Shown piece after piece: positions 3,950-63,046 of a stretch of 64,000 nucleotides of DNA. Each line of letters opens with the position of its first letter. Position 1 is the stretch's first letter. The translations under genes and the position numbers were made by a program. The notes under the pieces were generated by a model. It was not told the origin of the DNA. It saw nothing but the letters and a program-made list of their open reading frames with translations, and ran no database searches. The DNA is from Sphingobacteriales bacterium (GTDB lineage Bacteria; Bacteroidota; Bacteroidia; Chitinophagales; Chitinophagaceae), in the NCBI GenBank assembly GCA_004295245.1, contig REAR01000058.1:1-64000 (forward strand), in the 5' to 3' direction.

Positions 3950-6900
3950 ATGAAAAAAGTCTTACTCCTTACCACAATTGGAACACTACTTTTATTGAGC
4001 GTTACCCATGCACAAAATGTTATGGATCCATTGGATCCTGTGTACACTTACAATTCTTCGGATCCCGTAGGCAGCAATACCAACCCTACAGGTGCGGCGA
4101 ATTATGAAATTAAGAAATGGATAAGAACCAATACCCCTAACAGGGTAACCTGGAACACCACCAACTTTAAATGTTATTTATTTGGGGGTACTGCAACCAC
4201 CAGTGCGGTGGCTTTTCGTATACGTTTCCCTAACAATTATAATCCCAATAATGCCACTAAATACCCGGTAATGGTTTTTTTCCATGGAGGTGGTGAGGCA
4301 AAGCCAATTACAGAAAATCAAGACAATTTGTATTGGGGTGCACAAAAGTTTGAGCAAAGAATTAATGAAGGCCAGTGGAATGGCTTTTTGATATTTCCAC
4401 AATCAACCCGCTCTGGTTGGGATGATACCCATTTCTTTGCTTTAAACCATGTAATTGATACTTTGGCAAAATATAACAATGCAGATGTTGATAAAGTAGT
4501 GTCTATGGGCTTATCAATTGGAGGATTAGGCGCTATAGAATATGCCAGATACCATCCTACAAGAGTTGCAACATTGGCGCCCAGTTCTCCTGCGCTTTTA
4601 ACAAGTACTGTGCCTGATATGCCAGAGTTTCTTCATATTCCTACTTTCATGGGATATGGCGGTAAGGATACAAATCCCAGACCAGCCGATGTGGAAGTTT
4701 ATATTAATAATTTCAGAAACATTGGAGGGGATTTAGATACTGCGTACTTTCCTTTGTTGGGTCACGTATGCTGGAATGAGCATTGGGATGATAAATATTC
4801 TAATGGGCAATATATATTATTTGATTACTTAAATAAAATGCACAAAGCCCAGCCATTAGTATTTAATAATAAAAATAAGTTCTGTATTGACTCTGCAGTT
4901 ACAGCAAAGCTTGGTTTAACAGCTGGTTTTGCCGCTTATGAATGGCAAAGGCAGGATACTATAGTTGCAGTTACAGCAAAGCTAGGTTTAACGGCTGGTT
5001 TTGCCGCTTATGAATGGCAAAGGCAAGATACTATAGTTGGAGCACCATGGGTAACTATTGCCGGGGCTACAGGTAACGAATATTCTCCTACCCAATTCGG
5101 TTATTATAAAGTAAGATTTAAGCGTTCATTAGCAGGTAATTGGTCTCCTGATATATCAATTACCCCGTACAATAGTAAGGTATTACCAACATTAGAAAGT
5201 AAAACACTAGTGCCATTAGAGTTGCCGAGTGGTTATTTATTGTATGAATGGAGAAGGAATAGTGATAATGCCATAGTTAGTACTTCCAGAACTTTTAATG
5301 CACCTACCGGAGAGTATAAGGCAATAGTAAAAGAAACAGGTGGCTGCGGTGCTATTTTCTCACCCAACTTCAAGGTGGTGAATGCAGTTGGTACACCTAA
5401 ACCTGATGCAGCTAAAAATCTTACAGCATATCCGTTATCTGGTACAACTGTTCAGTTAGAGTGGAATAACAGTGCTAGCCCTACATATAATGAAACTGGT
5501 TTTGAAATTTATCGTGCCACAGCTGCTGGCGGACCTTATAAGTTTGTGTATACAACTGGTGCAGATGTGTTAAGCTATCTAGACCAGGGATTATCTACCA
5601 ATACAAATTATTATTATACAATAAGGGCCGTTAATGAAACGGGAGCTGCTACGCAAAGCAATGAAGCTACCGTTAAAACAGTAGTTGATAATATTGCTCC
5701 TACAGCACCTTCTAATTTAAAAACAGTTTACACTACCCGCAATGCAGTTGAACTGGTATGGAACCGAGCAACTGATAATGTTGGTGTTGCAAAGTATGAT
5801 GTGTATGTGAATGGCACTAAAATGTATACTACCGAGGATTCAAATTTTGTAGTTAATAACCTTACTGCGCAACAGGTATATACATTTGCAGTAAAAGCAA
5901 GAGACCTTGCTACCAATGTATCTCCCTTCTCTAACCAGATAACAGCAGCTACTATTTATAATGGGTTGCGTTATTCTTATTATGAAGGCATTTGGTCTAC
6001 GTTGCCAGATTTTAATCAACTGACACCAGTGTTATTTGGTACTTCAGCTACTCCAGATATCAGTGTAAGGCCAGCAGGTGTAACTACCAATCACGCATTT
6101 TTGTGGAAAGGATTTATAAACATAACACAAACTGGCACCTATATTTTTTATACTAATTCAGCAGACGGTAGTAGAATGTATTTTAACAATGCAGAGTATT
6201 CATTTAGTACAACATCAACTGTAAGTAACGACGGTACAAAAACCAATGCTACAGAAGTTGCAAGTGCATCTGTTGTAATTGGTACTGCAGGTTGGTATCC
6301 AATAACAGTAACGTACTTTCAAAATAGCGGCACACAGGCTATGGAATTAAGATGGCAGCGTACCACCTCACCAACTTTAGCGAAACAGGCCGTTCCTGCA
6401 ACGCAATTTGCAGAAACACTTTCTTTAGGTACAGTTCCGGCTGCGCCTAGCTCATTAGTTGCAACAAGCGCTGGCTATAATAGCATTCAGTTAAATTGGA
6501 TTGATAATAGTGCGAATGAAACGGGTTTTGAATTGGTAAGAAGTACTGTCGAAAACGGAACTTTCACACCTGTAGCAAATGTAGGAGCAAACACCACTTC
6601 CTACTTAGATCAAACCAACCTGGATCCTAATACTAAATATTTTTATCAGGTAAGAGCGATTAATGCAGCTGGAGCATCAGCATTTGATTATTCATATACA
6701 CAGGCTAACTGGAAGTTGAATAACAATCTGAATGAAGATACAGATGTAACCCGTAACTTGACAGGCTCTGGTACTATTACTTATAACTCATCAGACAAAC
6801 AGGAAGGCTCGCATTCATTAATACTTAATGGATCAAATGCAACTGCGACAGTAAACAACAGTTCAGGTGGTGGCTTTCCTAGCACAGGCGGTTACACGCA

Positions 6901-35910: not shown

Positions 35911-38900
35911 ATGAACAGCTTGAAGAACCAATTATACATATGCTTATTACTCACCTGCATCCTGTTTGCTCAAAACTCCCAGGCACAGGCTAATTTTGAA
36001 TTTGTTGAAAATAAAGGACAGTGGGACAGCCGCGTACATCTAAAAGGTGCTTTTACCTCAGGCGCCTTCTACCTCAGGGAAAAAGGGTTTACCGTATTAC
36101 TGCACAACCCCTACGATTTACAAAAAATGGTAGATCACCACCACGGCCAAGGCATAAAAAACAATACAGCAAATAATGCACTAAATGCCAGCCGCCCCGG
36201 CGAAGAAGGCCCCGAAGGCATTAGAACCGATAGCGGTAACATCTTACATTCGCATGCCTACAATGTAGATTTTTTAGGGGCTGCAACAGGCTTAAAAGCA
36301 CAGCCCGATAAAATACAGGATTCTTATAACAATTATTTTTTGGGAAGCGATAAAAGTAAGTGGGCCGCCAATTGTAAAATTTACAAAGCAGTCAACTATA
36401 AAAATTTATACCCAGGTATAGACATACGCTATTACTCAGACAACGGAACCTTAAAGTATGATTTACTGGTAAGCCCCGGTGCAGATATTAATGCCATTGC
36501 CATGCAATATGAAGGCATAGATAAACTCAGCATTAAAAACAATGAACTGATTATTTCTACTTCCGTAGGAGAAGTAAAAGAACTCTATCCATACAGTTAC
36601 CAGTTTGATAAAGTAACTGGTAAAAAAGAAGTACCCTGTAAGTTTGAAATTGTAAACGGCAATATTGTAAAATTTAAAATTAAAAATTACGATAAAACAC
36701 AACCACTGGTAATAGACCCCACACTGGTGTTTTCTACCTTTAATGGAAGCCCCGCTAATAACTACGGCTTTACTGCAACACCCGGACCAGATGGGACATT
36801 CTTTTCTGGTTGTAGTGTAAGAGAATCAGGATATCCTACCACTCCAGGTGCTTTTCAAAACGTTTTTGGTGGTGGTGCCGGCCAAAATGGGGTTTCTGAT
36901 ATTGGTATTATGAAATTTAATGCCACCGGTACAGCCCGTATTTATTCAACTTATATTGGCGGTAGTAATAATGAATACCCACACAGTATTATTGCTGATG
37001 CGGCAGGTAACCTGGTTATATTGGGCCGAACTTATTCGGCTAATTACCCCAGAACAGTACCAGTAGTTGGTACAGGTGGTGGTGGCGATATATTGGTTAC
37101 TAAATTAAATGCCGCTGGTACCGCCTTAATTGGTTCAATGGTTATTGGTGGCAATGGCTTAGACGGCACTAATATTAAAGACCCACAAAACGGTGCCAGT
37201 AGTAATCCACAAAGTATACATCGCTTTTATGGAGATGATTCCCGCAGTGAAGTAAACCTGGACAATGCAGGTAATATACTTGTGGCTGCACAGACACAAT
37301 CTGATAATTTTCCGGTAACTGCTGGTGTATTTCAAACCACTAAAGGGGCTTTGCAGGATGGAATGATTATGAAGATTAATGCCAATTGTAATGCATTAAT
37401 TTTTGCTTCCTTTCTTGGGGGTTCAGGAGATGATGGGGCTTTTGTAATAGCACAGCCTAAAGGCGGCGGTAATTATTTTGTGGCAGGCGGCACCACCAGT
37501 AACAATTTCCCCGGTAATAAAACAGGAGTAATAACACCTGCGTTTGCGGGTGGTACTACCGATGGTTTTATTGCAGAAATATCATCAGACGGTGCTTCCA
37601 TCATTCGTTCTACCTATTTGGGTACTGCTGGCATTGATATTATTTACGGAATACAGTTTGATAAATTTGGGTTTCCTTATGTAATGGGTATCACTTCTGG
37701 TAACTGGCCAGTGGTAAATGCTACGTACTCCAACCCCAATTCCTCACAGTTTATAGCAAAACTAAAAAAAGATTTATCTGCATACGAGTATTCAACTGTT
37801 TATGGTACCGGTACTGCACAGCCCAATATTTCGCCGGTAGCATTTCTGGTAGATCGCTGTGAGAACGTGTATGTATCTGGTTGGGGCGGTTGGTTAACGC
37901 CTGATGGCAACCCTTATAATCAGGCAGGTGTAGCAGGTATGCCGGTTACCACTGATGCCTTTAAAGGAAGTACGGTAGGAACTGGTAACAACAATACTGA
38001 TAACCGCGATTTTTATTTTATAGTGCTTCAAAAAAATGCGGCCGGTTTATTATTCGGCAGCACGTTTGGACAAAATGGAGGAGAAGGTGAGCATGTAGAT
38101 GGTGGTACCAGCCGCTTTGATGATCAGGGTGTAATTTATATGGCTATTTGTGCCAACTGTTTTGCTGGAACTCAAATTCCAATTACAACGCCGTACCCTA
38201 TTACCCCGGGGGTAGTTGGGCCTACTAATTTGTCGGGTGCAGCAGGGTGTAATTTAGGTGCTGCAAAAATTGCTTTCAATTTTGCAGGCGTGGGTGCCGG
38301 GGTACGTTCTTTTATACAGGGCACTTTAGATACTTCTGGTTGTGTGCCGCTGAATGTTGTTTTCAGAGATACAGTAAGAAATGCACAAACCTATGAATGG
38401 GATTTTGATGGTGACGGTATTACCGACCAGATAACTAACGATACACAGTTTGAAGTAACAGCTACCTATAATACTGTAGGCCGTTACCGGGTGCGTTTAA
38501 TTGCAGTAGATTCTACTACTTGTAATGTTCGCGATACTTCTTTTGTAAACATTATTGTTAGGAATGATGAAGCCACATTGGCTTTTAACGCAGTTAAAGT
38601 TGGTCCTTGCGAGTCTTTATCGTTCCAGTTTAATAATACTTCTATTGCACCAGCAGGCAAGCCATTCAGCAACCAGTCTTTTATCTGGGATTTTGGTGAT
38701 GGCTCCTCCAGGTTAGTAGCTGGCACAGGTAGTGTAACCCATGCTTTTCCGGCACCGGGTACCTATAACGTGCGGCTAATTTTGCCCGATACTAATTATT
38801 GTAATGCGCCAGACTCACTGCCATTAGAATTGCGCATTGCGCCCAACGTAAGAGCACAGTTTGAAATACCATTGGCTAATTGTGCGCCGTTTAATGCGGT

Positions 38901-39612
38901 GTTTAATAATACCAGTATTGCCGGGCAAACCTTTACTTGGGATTTTGGTGATGGCACCACCTCCACCTTAACCAATCCAACACATTTATATACTACACCG
39001 GGTACCTATACTATTAAGTTGCTGGCAACAGACCCTGCCACTTGTAACCTGATAGATTCTACCACCACCACTATTGTTGTAAGTGGCAGCCCAACAGCTG
39101 CATTTACCTATACGCCAACAGTGCCGGTGCAAAATGCCACACATACGTTTACCAATAACTCATCGCCAGATGCGGTGCGGTTTAAATGGATTTGGGGCGA
39201 TGGCGATTCTTTATCAACGGTAAGCCGTGCCGATGTGGATCATTTATACAACAGTACCGGAAACTTTAATGCTTGTCTGGTAGCTTATAATCAAATTGGT
39301 TGTCCGGATACAGTTTGTGCCACTGTGCAAACTATTGTAGTGCCGCAGTTAGATGTGCCCAATGCATTTACACCAGCAGGGCCTAATAATAATGTGGTGT
39401 ATGTGCGTGGTTTTGGTATTGGTAAAATGACCTGGCGTATTTATAACCGCTTTGGTAACCTGGTATTTCAAAGTGGCAGCCCCAATATTGGTTGGGATGG
39501 AAAATACAAAGGAACGTTACAGCCGATGGATGCGTATGCCTATACTTTAGAAGTGGAATTTACTGACGGAACAAAGGCACGTAAAACCGGCGATATTACT
39601 TTGCTGCGCTAA
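35911..39612 (+). CDS. Large secreted T9SS/gliding-associated protein: DUF7948-type N-terminus, SBBP-like beta-propeller repeats, PKD domains, gliding-motility (CHU_C-like) C-terminal domain
   Basis: NFEFVENKGQWDSRVHLKGAF; PKD YEWDFDGDGITD, FIWDFGDGSS, FTWDFGDGTT; C-term VPNAFTPAGPNNNVVYVRGFGIGKMTWRIYNRFGNLVFQS...GWDGKYKG. Confidence 0.92.
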   Translation: MNSLKNQLYICLLLTCILFAQNSQAQANFEFVENKGQWDSRVHLKGAFTSGAFYLREKGFTVLLHNPYDLQKMVDHHHGQGIKNNTANNALNASRPGEEGPEGIRTDSGNILHSHAYNVDFLGAATGLKAQPDKIQDSYNNYFLGSDKSKWAANCKIYKAVNYKNLYPGIDIRYYSDNGTLKYDLLVSPGADINAIAMQYEGIDKLSIKNNELIISTSVGEVKELYPYSYQFDKVTGKKEVPCKFEIVNGNIVKFKIKNYDKTQPLVIDPTLVFSTFNGSPANNYGFTATPGPDGTFFSGCSVRESGYPTTPGAFQNVFGGGAGQNGVSDIGIMKFNATGTARIYSTYIGGSNNEYPHSIIADAAGNLVILGRTYSANYPRTVPVVGTGGGGDILVTKLNAAGTALIGSMVIGGNGLDGTNIKDPQNGASSNPQSIHRFYGDDSRSEVNLDNAGNILVAAQTQSDNFPVTAGVFQTTKGALQDGMIMKINANCNALIFASFLGGSGDDGAFVIAQPKGGGNYFVAGGTTSNNFPGNKTGVITPAFAGGTTDGFIAEISSDGASIIRSTYLGTAGIDIIYGIQFDKFGFPYVMGITSGNWPVVNATYSNPNSSQFIAKLKKDLSAYEYSTVYGTGTAQPNISPVAFLVDRCENVYVSGWGGWLTPDGNPYNQAGVAGMPVTTDAFKGSTVGTGNNNTDNRDFYFIVLQKNAAGLLFGSTFGQNGGEGEHVDGGTSRFDDQGVIYMAICANCFAGTQIPITTPYPITPGVVGPTNLSGAAGCNLGAAKIAFNFAGVGAGVRSFIQGTLDTSGCVPLNVVFRDTVRNAQTYEWDFDGDGITDQITNDTQFEVTATYNTVGRYRVRLIAVDSTTCNVRDTSFVNIIVRNDEATLAFNAVKVGPCESLSFQFNNTSIAPAGKPFSNQSFIWDFGDGSSRLVAGTGSVTHAFPAPGTYNVRLILPDTNYCNAPDSLPLELRIAPNVRAQFEIPLANCAPFNAVFNNTSIAGQTFTWDFGDGTTSTLTNPTHLYTTPGTYTIKLLATDPATCNLIDSTTTTIVVSGSPTAAFTYTPTVPVQNATHTFTNNSSPDAVRFKWIWGDGDSLSTVSRADVDHLYNSTGNFNACLVAYNQIGCPDTVCATVQTIVVPQLDVPNAFTPAGPNNNVVYVRGFGIGKMTWRIYNRFGNLVFQSGSPNIGWDGKYKGTLQPMDAYAYTLEVEFTDGTKARKTGDITLLR

Positions 39613-39665: not shown

Positions 39666-39684
39666 TAATTGTAAGGAGGTAATC

Positions 39685-40803
39685 ATGAAAACGAAGATGC
39701 ATTATAAGAAGCTGAACAGCGCTGCAACTGTAAAAGTGTGCGACGCAACGGCTGTTGCCAGAAGTGTTACTGCCGGGTTCAAAAAAATATTTTTTTCACT
39801 TGGTTTGTTTATCTGTGTATCTACAGCAAATGCGCAGGATACGCATTTCTCTCAATGGTTTAACTCGCCTTTATTAACCAACCCTGCTAACACCGGTTTT
39901 ATACCTGATGATGATTATCGTTTTGGTGCTAACTACCGCAACCAATGGGTGAATATTATGAATGTGCCTTATAAAACAATTAGTGTGTATGGAGATGTGC
40001 AGGCGTTTAGAGAAAAACTAGATAATGGTTGGTTGGGTTTAGGCGGTGTAATTTTAAATGATGTGGCAGGCAGTGGTAATTTAACTTCTACTAAAGTGTA
40101 TGGCTCTGTGGCCTACCATCAAATGGTGGGTTATAGCAGTTTGATTAGTGCTGGTTTTAATATGGGTTTTGTAAGTAAAAGAGTTAACCCAACGCAACTA
40201 AAATTTCCTGATCAGTTTAATAAGGCTACCGGTTTTTTTGATGCGGGTATACCTACTGCTGCGGCATTTAATGCCACCAGCATTGGTTATTTTGATATGC
40301 ATGCCGGTGTTAACTACGCTTACTTTCCTACAGAAAAAATTTATGTAAACGCTGGCTTTAGTGTGCAGCATTTAAACCGGCCTAAAGAAAGTTTTTTTGC
40401 AGCCACCAGTGGTTTTGATAATCGCCTGTCTCCTCGCTATACCGGTTTTATTAGTGCTAGTATTAAGGTAAACGATATGGTATTATTAAACCCGCAAGGC
40501 TATTATAGCAACCAGGCTAATGCCAATGAACTGGTAGCGGGTATGAACGCACATTACAATTTAAGTGGCGATGGCACCACACAGTTAATTGGCGGTTTGT
40601 ATTATCGCTTAAGCGAAGCCATTGTGCCGGTTGTTGGCTTTCAATGGAACGATTTTAAAATGACTTTTAATTACGATGTTACCACTTCTTCGCTAAAAGC
40701 CTATAACAATGGCCGCGGTGCCATAGAATTTTCTTTGGTTAAGCAAGGTTTGTTTAATACCTATAACCGTGGTGCCAGACAGGTTATTTGTCCAAGATTA
40801 TAA
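39685..40803 (+). CDS. PorP/SprF family type IX secretion membrane protein
   Basis: FKKIFFSLGLFICVSTANAQDTHFSQWFNSPLLTNPANTGFIPDDDYRFGANYRNQW; preceded by aaggaggtaatc. Confidence 0.93.
   Translation: MKTKMHYKKLNSAATVKVCDATAVARSVTAGFKKIFFSLGLFICVSTANAQDTHFSQWFNSPLLTNPANTGFIPDDDYRFGANYRNQWVNIMNVPYKTISVYGDVQAFREKLDNGWLGLGGVILNDVAGSGNLTSTKVYGSVAYHQMVGYSSLISAGFNMGFVSKRVNPTQLKFPDQFNKATGFFDAGIPTAAAFNATSIGYFDMHAGVNYAYFPTEKIYVNAGFSVQHLNRPKESFFAATSGFDNRLSPRYTGFISASIKVNDMVLLNPQGYYSNQANANELVAGMNAHYNLSGDGTTQLIGGLYYRLSEAIVPVVGFQWNDFKMTFNYDVTTSSLKAYNNGRGAIEFSLVKQGLFNTYNRGARQVICPRL
39734..39749 (-). repeat. Family A single arm, copy A6, inside the PorP/SprF coding sequence
   Basis: aagtgtgcgacgcaac translated in frame as VCDAT (context VKVCDATAVA). 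Confidence 0.9.
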
Positions 40804-40810
40804 TTTTTAT

Positions 40811-40862
40811 GTAACCAGCAACAGTAACTCTGGTTAAACTATACTTGCGTCGCACACTTGTG
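40811..40862 (+). repeat. Family A, copy A7 left half (GTAACCAGC 40811-40819; arm 40844-40862)
   Basis: gtaaccagc ... cttgcgtcgcacacttgtg. Confidence 0.85.
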
Positions 40863-40977
40863 CCACACAATAAAAATGAACAATAATGCGGCACCCTGGC
40901 TGCAAGCGGTAGTGGCAGTTGTAAAAGCATCCATACCGCCGTGTAATAAATTTTAAAGTAACTTTCCACTCCAATTA

Positions 40978-48808: not shown

Positions 48809-48893
48809 ATATATTATTACTTATACTTTTAATTGCTGCTTTAATAGCAGCTATTTTTTTTGATGCCAGCCTTAGTACTACTTATCAGCAGCC

Positions 48894-48955
48894 GTTGCCA
48901 CGCTCGTTTCAACGGTGGTGCTTATGGCAGCAATGCGTGGCAGTTTTACACTGCC
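48894..48955 (+). repeat. Family B repeat, copy B1
   Basis: gttgccacgctcgtttcaacggtggtgcttatggcagcaatgcgtggcagttttacact. Confidence 0.88.
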
Positions 48956-53359: not shown

Positions 53360-53530
53360 TTTACCAGCTTCACCGCTCCGGTTACACATAGTTGCTACGC
53401 TCAGTTTAACAGTTGTACTATACCTACACACTTTTTTGAAACTGCATACTTAAGTAAACTTAGTGTAAACTGCCACGCATTACTTGCTGCCAGAAGCACC
53501 ACCGTTGAAACGAGCGTGGCAACGGCTGCC
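53359..53530. repeat. Family B element, copy B2, with both arms (GTTTACCAGC 53359; left arm 53391-53407; right arm 53508-53523)
   Basis: gttgctacgctcagttt ... aaacgagcgtggcaac. Confidence 0.85.
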
Positions 53531-53565
53531 GCTTACTGGTATACTGCCGGCATCCTAAAAAATTA

Positions 53566-56913: not shown

Positions 56914-57060
56914 GGTAACCAGCAATGGTACGGGTAGCAACATCGTTGCCACGCTCGTTTCAACGGTGGTGCTTATGGCGGCAATGCATGGCAGTTTATA
57001 TTGATTTTTTTACAGAAGTGAAGTGTCGCACCATTCAGCTGCAGCGCTTGCCGGGGCAAC
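56914..57060 (+). repeat. Family B element, copy B3 (GGTAACCAGC 56914-56923; arm region 56945-56997)
   Basis: ggtaaccagc...atcgttgccacgctcgtttcaacggtggtgcttatggcggcaatgcatggcag...gaagtgtcgcaccattcagctgcag. Confidence 0.85.
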
Positions 57061-62443: not shown

Positions 62444-62636
62444 GGTAACCAGCTGCAGTTTTTCATAGCATCATCGTTGCGTCGCACACTTGTGCAGTAA
62501 GACCGTAAGACTGAAAAGTTGGAAAGAGTTGTGCAATTTAGGTAAGCATATTCCATACTTTCCTAATTACAGACTTGTATTTTATTGCACAAGTGTGCGA
62601 CGCAACGATGCTGATGGATTTGTTGTGGCCGGGTAC
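62444..62636. repeat. Family A inverted repeat, copy A11 (GGTAACCAGC 62444-62453; arms 62476-62494 and 62588-62606)
   Basis: gttgcgtcgcacacttgtg ... cacaagtgtgcgacgcaac, perfect 19-nt arms. Confidence 0.93.
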
Positions 62637-62644
62637 ATAAAAAA

Positions 62645-62991
62645 ACTACCAGCTCATAAGCCGGATTCTGTTTCTAAACTATCATTTATCTGTTTTGCAA
62701 ATTACTTTGCAAAATCAATCTGCCTACCCTCCAGCATCAGACGGGCCGTCTTCAGGCGCTGGTATACGTGGCATTTCAGCATACAAGGTTTACCCGCTGG
62801 CATAATTACTTATACCTGCTGTGAGCTCTTACCTCACATTTTCACCCTCACCCTGCTTGCGCGGGGCAGTTATTTTCTGTGGCACTTTCTGTTGGTGCTT
62901 GGCACCACCCGGCTATTCACCGGTGTATTGCCCTGTGCTGTCCAGACTTTCCTTCCTGTTATTGCTAACAAGACGATAGTTCGGCTGGTAG
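62645..62991 (-). ncRNA. rnpB: RNase P RNA component (bacterial type A-like)
   Basis: Minus strand carries the GGAAAGTCCGGACAGCACAGGGCAATACACCGGTGAATAGCCGG block, ...TACCTCACAGCAGG-like core and 3' ACAGAATCCGGCTTATGAGCTGGTAGT; ends pair (actaccagc/gctggtagt). Confidence 0.93.
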
Positions 62992-63046
62992 TAATTTTTT
63001 AAAAGAGCAACTGCAAAAATACAGTTTAAATAGTATTGCTGCTGTT

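Follow-up and report, generated by a model that had tools for sequence, protein, structure and literature searches.

A single arm of an abundant interspersed repeat is read in frame near the N-terminus of a porP/sprF gene in a Sphingobacteriales bacterium of the Chitinophagaceae, and we consider it very likely that this arm was inserted in frame into the n-region of the signal peptide, lengthening it. The draft genome comprises 3,371,011 bases in 269 contigs, and the window (the whole stretch of 64,000 nt that was analyzed) is from contig 248. The features of the window on which the argument rests are as follows:

39673 to 39679, plus strand: AAGGAGG resembling a Shine-Dalgarno motif, 5 bases before the ATG of porP (from the sequence)
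39685 to 40803, plus strand: gene for a 372-aa PorP/SprF-family protein, with the in-frame repeat close to the N-terminus (ORF and PF11751)
39724 to 39790, plus strand: solitary arm of the interspersed repeat, with its core at 39734-39748, encoding about residues 14-34 (exact core and profile score)
39787 to 39837, plus strand: predicted hydrophobic core and cleavage region of the signal peptide, IFFSLGLFICVSTANAQ, 3' of the insert (translation and signal-peptide positions of orthologues)
40805 to 40869, minus strand: second arm, in opposite orientation, directly past the PorP stop codon, core exact at 40845-40859

The porP gene and its start codon

A profile search matched residues 49-343 of the 372-aa ORF to PF11751 (PorP_SprF) at 3.3e-37, with 128.9 bits against a curated cut-off of 22.3 and with coverage of profile positions 3-265 of 273. 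A sequence-only reading of this DNA had named the gene as PorP/SprF and quoted its N-terminus, and both agree with the ORF translation and the profile match. Of the 397 genomes examined in the bacterial family, 381 contain PorP/SprF matches.

The same reading had noted a good Shine-Dalgarno-like sequence before the ORF, and AAGGAGG is indeed present at 39673-39679. This motif is rare at starts, preceding only 2 of the 911 called ATG starts within Shine-Dalgarno range in the sampled genome; it also precedes the start of four PorP orthologues (L210, L057, L059, and L064), with the shorter form AGGAGG in two more (L043 and L062). The next ATG of the ORF comes only at residue 92, within the Pfam domain. 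Because AAGGAGG is rare genome-wide and shared by orthologue starts, and because there is no ATG before residue 92, position 39685 is probably the start that porP uses.

Initiation within or past the repeat, which would leave the arm untranslated as proposed here, strikes us as very improbable. GTG and TTG codons are present, the former at residue 18 within the repeat and the latter at residue 41, and many published REPs at gene 5' ends are thought to have been misannotated as coding (PMC3733652). However, the GTG lacks a Shine-Dalgarno motif, whereas a strong one stands before 39685; a start at the TTG would leave no usable signal peptide; and the first ATG past the repeat, at residue 92, already lies inside the Pfam domain. 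The rare AAGGAGG before the 39685 ATG and the lack of any ATG between the repeat and residue 92 thus favor the in-frame insertion into the n-region that the sequence-only reading had put forward.

The repeat arm inside porP

The 15-nt core of the repeat, AAGTGTGCGACGCAA, is matched exactly at 39734-39748. When the copy in porP is left out of the profile, its outer 40 nt score 28.3 bits, which places it at the 97th percentile of 413 arms (p of about 5e-5 against 40,000 random genome positions), and for its inner 10 nt the score is 3.9 bits (p 0.016). We count the A-rich outer end GGGTTCAAAAAAAT as part of the repeat, so that residues up to about K34 are repeat-derived; TTCAAAAAAAT at the end of the arm agrees with the outer-end consensus GGTTACAAAAAA. 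A search for a partner arm within 200 nt upstream detected none, the best candidate having 7 mismatches. The earlier equation of VKVCDATAVA with the translation of the arm is right as to the core, which is exact, but too short in extent, as the repeat runs from about residue 14 to residue 34. The claim of an insertion of about 60 nt that kept the frame and lengthened the n-region is supported by the profile match, and by orthologues that have shorter signal peptides and no core.

These orthologues call for a more careful reading. Among 13 close orthologues (66-72% identity), the distance from the first ATG to a conserved Q is 24-29 aa in 11, versus 51 aa here, and 43 and 46 aa in the remaining two; in more distant orthologues it is 20-69 aa, and nearly half of these have 34-69 aa without this repeat. 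The lengths in the distant orthologues are upper bounds, as the first possible ATG need not be the start. In 54 orthologues, the 260 nt before the mature part contain no core with fewer than three mismatches; the orthologue with a three-mismatch core, L064, has a related variant of the arm before the gene. A scan of named genomes yielded four relatives only. In the orthologue comparison advised by the sequence-only reading, close orthologues are mostly shorter and none has the core, but distant ones may also be long without the repeat. Since long n-regions are tolerated in the PorP family, length alone is no proof of insertion. Signal-peptide DNA among congeners is too diverged for the exact borders of the insert, or a target duplication, to be read from it.

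The surroundings of the gene bear on whether the arm could mark a false join. The conserved end of the upstream gene (DITL.R followed by the stop codon) precedes PorP in relatives too, so that both sides of the insert stand in their ancestral context. An assembly artefact, in which a false join at the repeat united unrelated sequences, is conceivable in a draft of 269 contigs, where false joins at repeats may occur; however, the upstream gene and PorP are neighbors in relatives as well, and the reading frame runs through the arm without a stop. Given this synteny and the conserved end of the upstream gene, we give a chimeric join next to no credence. The gene directly upstream, at 35911-39612, encodes a large protein that contains DUF7948 and PKD repeats as well as a CHU_C type IX secretion signal domain.

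The repeat family

The 3.37-Mb assembly contains 502 exact copies of the core, or 878 copies when one mismatch is allowed, against 0-1 matches of the reversed pattern used as a control. Other genera of the family carry it in fewer copies (45 in G007, 51 in G013, and 20 in G005), and the arms of G007 and G005 follow the same general plan as those of this genome. We thus describe an abundant repeat family common to several Chitinophagaceae genera, with no mobilizing enzyme evident. The consensus of 413 arms is TCTACTGCTG-AAGTGTGCGACGCAA-CGATGGTTGAAAAAAATACCAATGCTGGTTACAAAAAAAA. The core is nearly invariant, the middle varies, and the outer end is conserved; an arm is about 60-65 nt long.

Arms are arranged in a strongly preferred way. 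Among 385 core matches in 1.31 Mb, neighboring arms at most 200 nt apart are in -+ orientation 88 times versus 3 times in +-, with spacers of 6-149 nt in the -+ pairs; grouping gives 88 pairs versus 209 solitary arms. Where a gene faces a solitary arm at its outer end, that end clusters just past the stop codon. The arm at 40805-40869 is an instance of this typical placement, with a weaker outer flank (-2.8 bits, p 0.025). The frames used by the two arms found within genes (porP and a second gene, below) are open in 253 and 234 of the 413 arms, and read-through of an arm is thus easy.

Several other elements were observed in the window. An Rfam scan matched only a bacterial class A RNase P RNA at 62641-62992 on the minus strand (238 bits) and gave no match at the repeat; arms at about 62446-62500 and 62568-62617 adjoin this RNA. 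A related repeat type with the core AAACGAGCGTGGCAA has 11 exact copies in 1.59 Mb sampled, three of them in the window (48893-48946, 53484-53541, and 56944-56997), and of another type, AAGTGAGTGACACAA, there are 20 exact copies in this sample but none in the window. Positions 4894-5037 hold two tandem copies of a 72-nt unit that are 96% identical.

Arms in coding DNA and a second in-frame case

Gene calls by a codon-usage model on 1.59 Mb sampled (about 47% of the genome) show that arms are nearly excluded from coding DNA: 84% of the sample is coding, and a random spread would put about 385 of the 459 core matches in genes, but only 9 overlap a called gene. Two of the nine are chance matches, four have an ATG past the arm, one lies at a 3' end, and two lie in the gene body; the share of arms within genes is below 1%. 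Exclusion was a judgment by eye: C6 and C28 were rejected as chance matches with 2 mismatches, and C54, C248:72012, L125, and L147 for a plausible ATG past the arm. Most of the 17 in-gene copies among 121 suggested by mechanical ORFs were likewise rejected, as they have a better start past the arm. At C189:19932 (L247), an arm lies antisense over the last 16 codons of a predicted gene of 270 aa, possibly as a C-terminal tail of repeat origin.

Only two arms in the 1.59 Mb, those in PorP and at C46:1248, are convincingly within a gene body, and both precede the hydrophobic core of a signal peptide, in its n-region. The arm at C46:1248 (minus strand; the same as L028:1248) is an independent second case; it is in frame, and the protein that contains it is at least 437 aa long and sortilin/BNR-like by appearance. 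The N-terminus of this protein, MPFNKTIGLRTVKLQLLKGATQEKLPRLTTAGIPIIIALLFTLPATLFAQ, can be compared with MPKQLLLTLLLLSVVIAQGQ of the congener G002, which shares the start codon and has no insert; the signal peptides are 50 aa and 20 aa long, respectively. The DNA of the two is alignable by eye upstream up to and including ATGCC, and a MAFFT alignment is poor past the start codon. About 30 nt of the extension are unexplained by the arm.

This second case helps to weigh a rival history for porP, in which the arm landed upstream of the original start, that start decayed, and an upstream start with a Shine-Dalgarno sequence was recruited, all sequence before the hydrophobic core being newly coding 5' leader. 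FKKIFFSLG does look like a typical MKKIFF start whose ATG has become TTC, and most apparent N-terminal overlaps in this genome have the arm just upstream of the likely true start. Yet FKK is accounted for by the outer end of the repeat itself, and the beginning of the protein, MKTKMHYKKL, resembles MNRTLHYYKV, the start of the orthologue L064 from another genus, which is also preceded by AAGGAGG. Further, the start codon of the C46 gene aligns with that of its insert-free congener, which argues against start recruitment and supports the claim of in-frame insertion into the n-region. We regard the recruited start as unlikely.

Proposed history and its implications

The genome hosts a large REP-like family of arms of about 60-65 nt, solitary or in inverted pairs, that are normally intergenic and near gene ends. 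We propose that one arm entered the beginning of an ancestral porP/sprF gene after its first dozen codons (MKTKMHYKKLNSA) and before the hydrophobic core. As the arm is open in the phase used and its net length kept the frame, the gene would have survived, with its signal peptide extended from about 27 to about 51 aa. The lengthened signal peptide is probably still exported and cleaved; as the n-region is loosely constrained, the insertion was probably close to neutral.

The porP insertion provides a clear, outgroup-backed example in Bacteroidota of a short intergenic repeat turned protein-coding. That both convincing cases of the sampled genome fall in one niche, the signal-peptide n-region, leads to a testable prediction of harmless entry sites. 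We suggest tentatively, as a possibility with the balance somewhat against it, that intergenic REP-like elements of Bacteroidota recurrently land, and are tolerated, in the n-region of Sec signal peptides; if so, repeats would repeatedly give new n-region codons to exported proteins, components of the type IX secretion system among them.

Comparison with known repeat systems

REPs and BIMEs are among the closest known counterparts of the family. Like the GTAG and CGTC superfamilies (PMC3733652), it has hundreds of copies, as singletons and as opposite-orientation dimers, which are intergenic and near gene 3' ends, with occasional intragenic copies including N-terminal ones; the reverse complement of the core contains CGTC, the tag of the CGTC REPs. 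It differs from them in its arm of about 60-65 nt. The tag of CGTC REPs is followed by a stem of 8-9 bp with a loop of 4-5 nt; no such stem was found beside this CGTC, where a potential stem of about 4 bp is confined to the GCAC/GTAC variants (131 of 347 arms). Neither a conserved single-arm hairpin (mean folding z of -0.6 to -0.7 against mononucleotide shuffles) nor conserved pairing columns forming a helix were found in the arms. The genome has one match to a Y1 tyrosine transposase (Y1_Tnp; L071, C141:5905-6249); an arm lies about 170 nt away on its 3' side, the contig ends on the other side, and no arm lies near the best Y1_Tnp of G007; this hints only faintly at a flanking RAYT as the mobilizer of the arms. 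With neither a convincing transposase nor a conserved single-arm hairpin, the family is REP-like and not a proven REP member.

Bacterial MITEs offer a second comparison. The family shares with them inverted arm pairs in one fixed arrangement, high copy number, and a non-coding nature. Unlike MITEs, it has no constant length between terminal inverted repeats, as the spacer varies over 6-149 nt, and its solitary arms (209) outnumber its pairs (88).

In terms of in-frame behavior only, the porP arm is comparable to the Rickettsia palindromic elements (RPEs), short in-frame inserts after which the gene stays functional. RPEs are about 150 bp long, with nearly half of the R. conorii copies in ORFs (PMC10969869), whereas here a lone arm of about 65 nt makes up the unit, and less than 1% of the arms lie within genes. 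In-frame RPEs are already published, with proteins carrying an N-terminal RPE-1 reported as expressed (PMC3733652, PMC10969869), and so are intragenic REPs, N-terminal ones included (PMC3733652). No report of a REP insertion in a signal-peptide n-region was found in the open-access literature. The porP insertion is thus well supported as a new case of a known but uncommon type of event.
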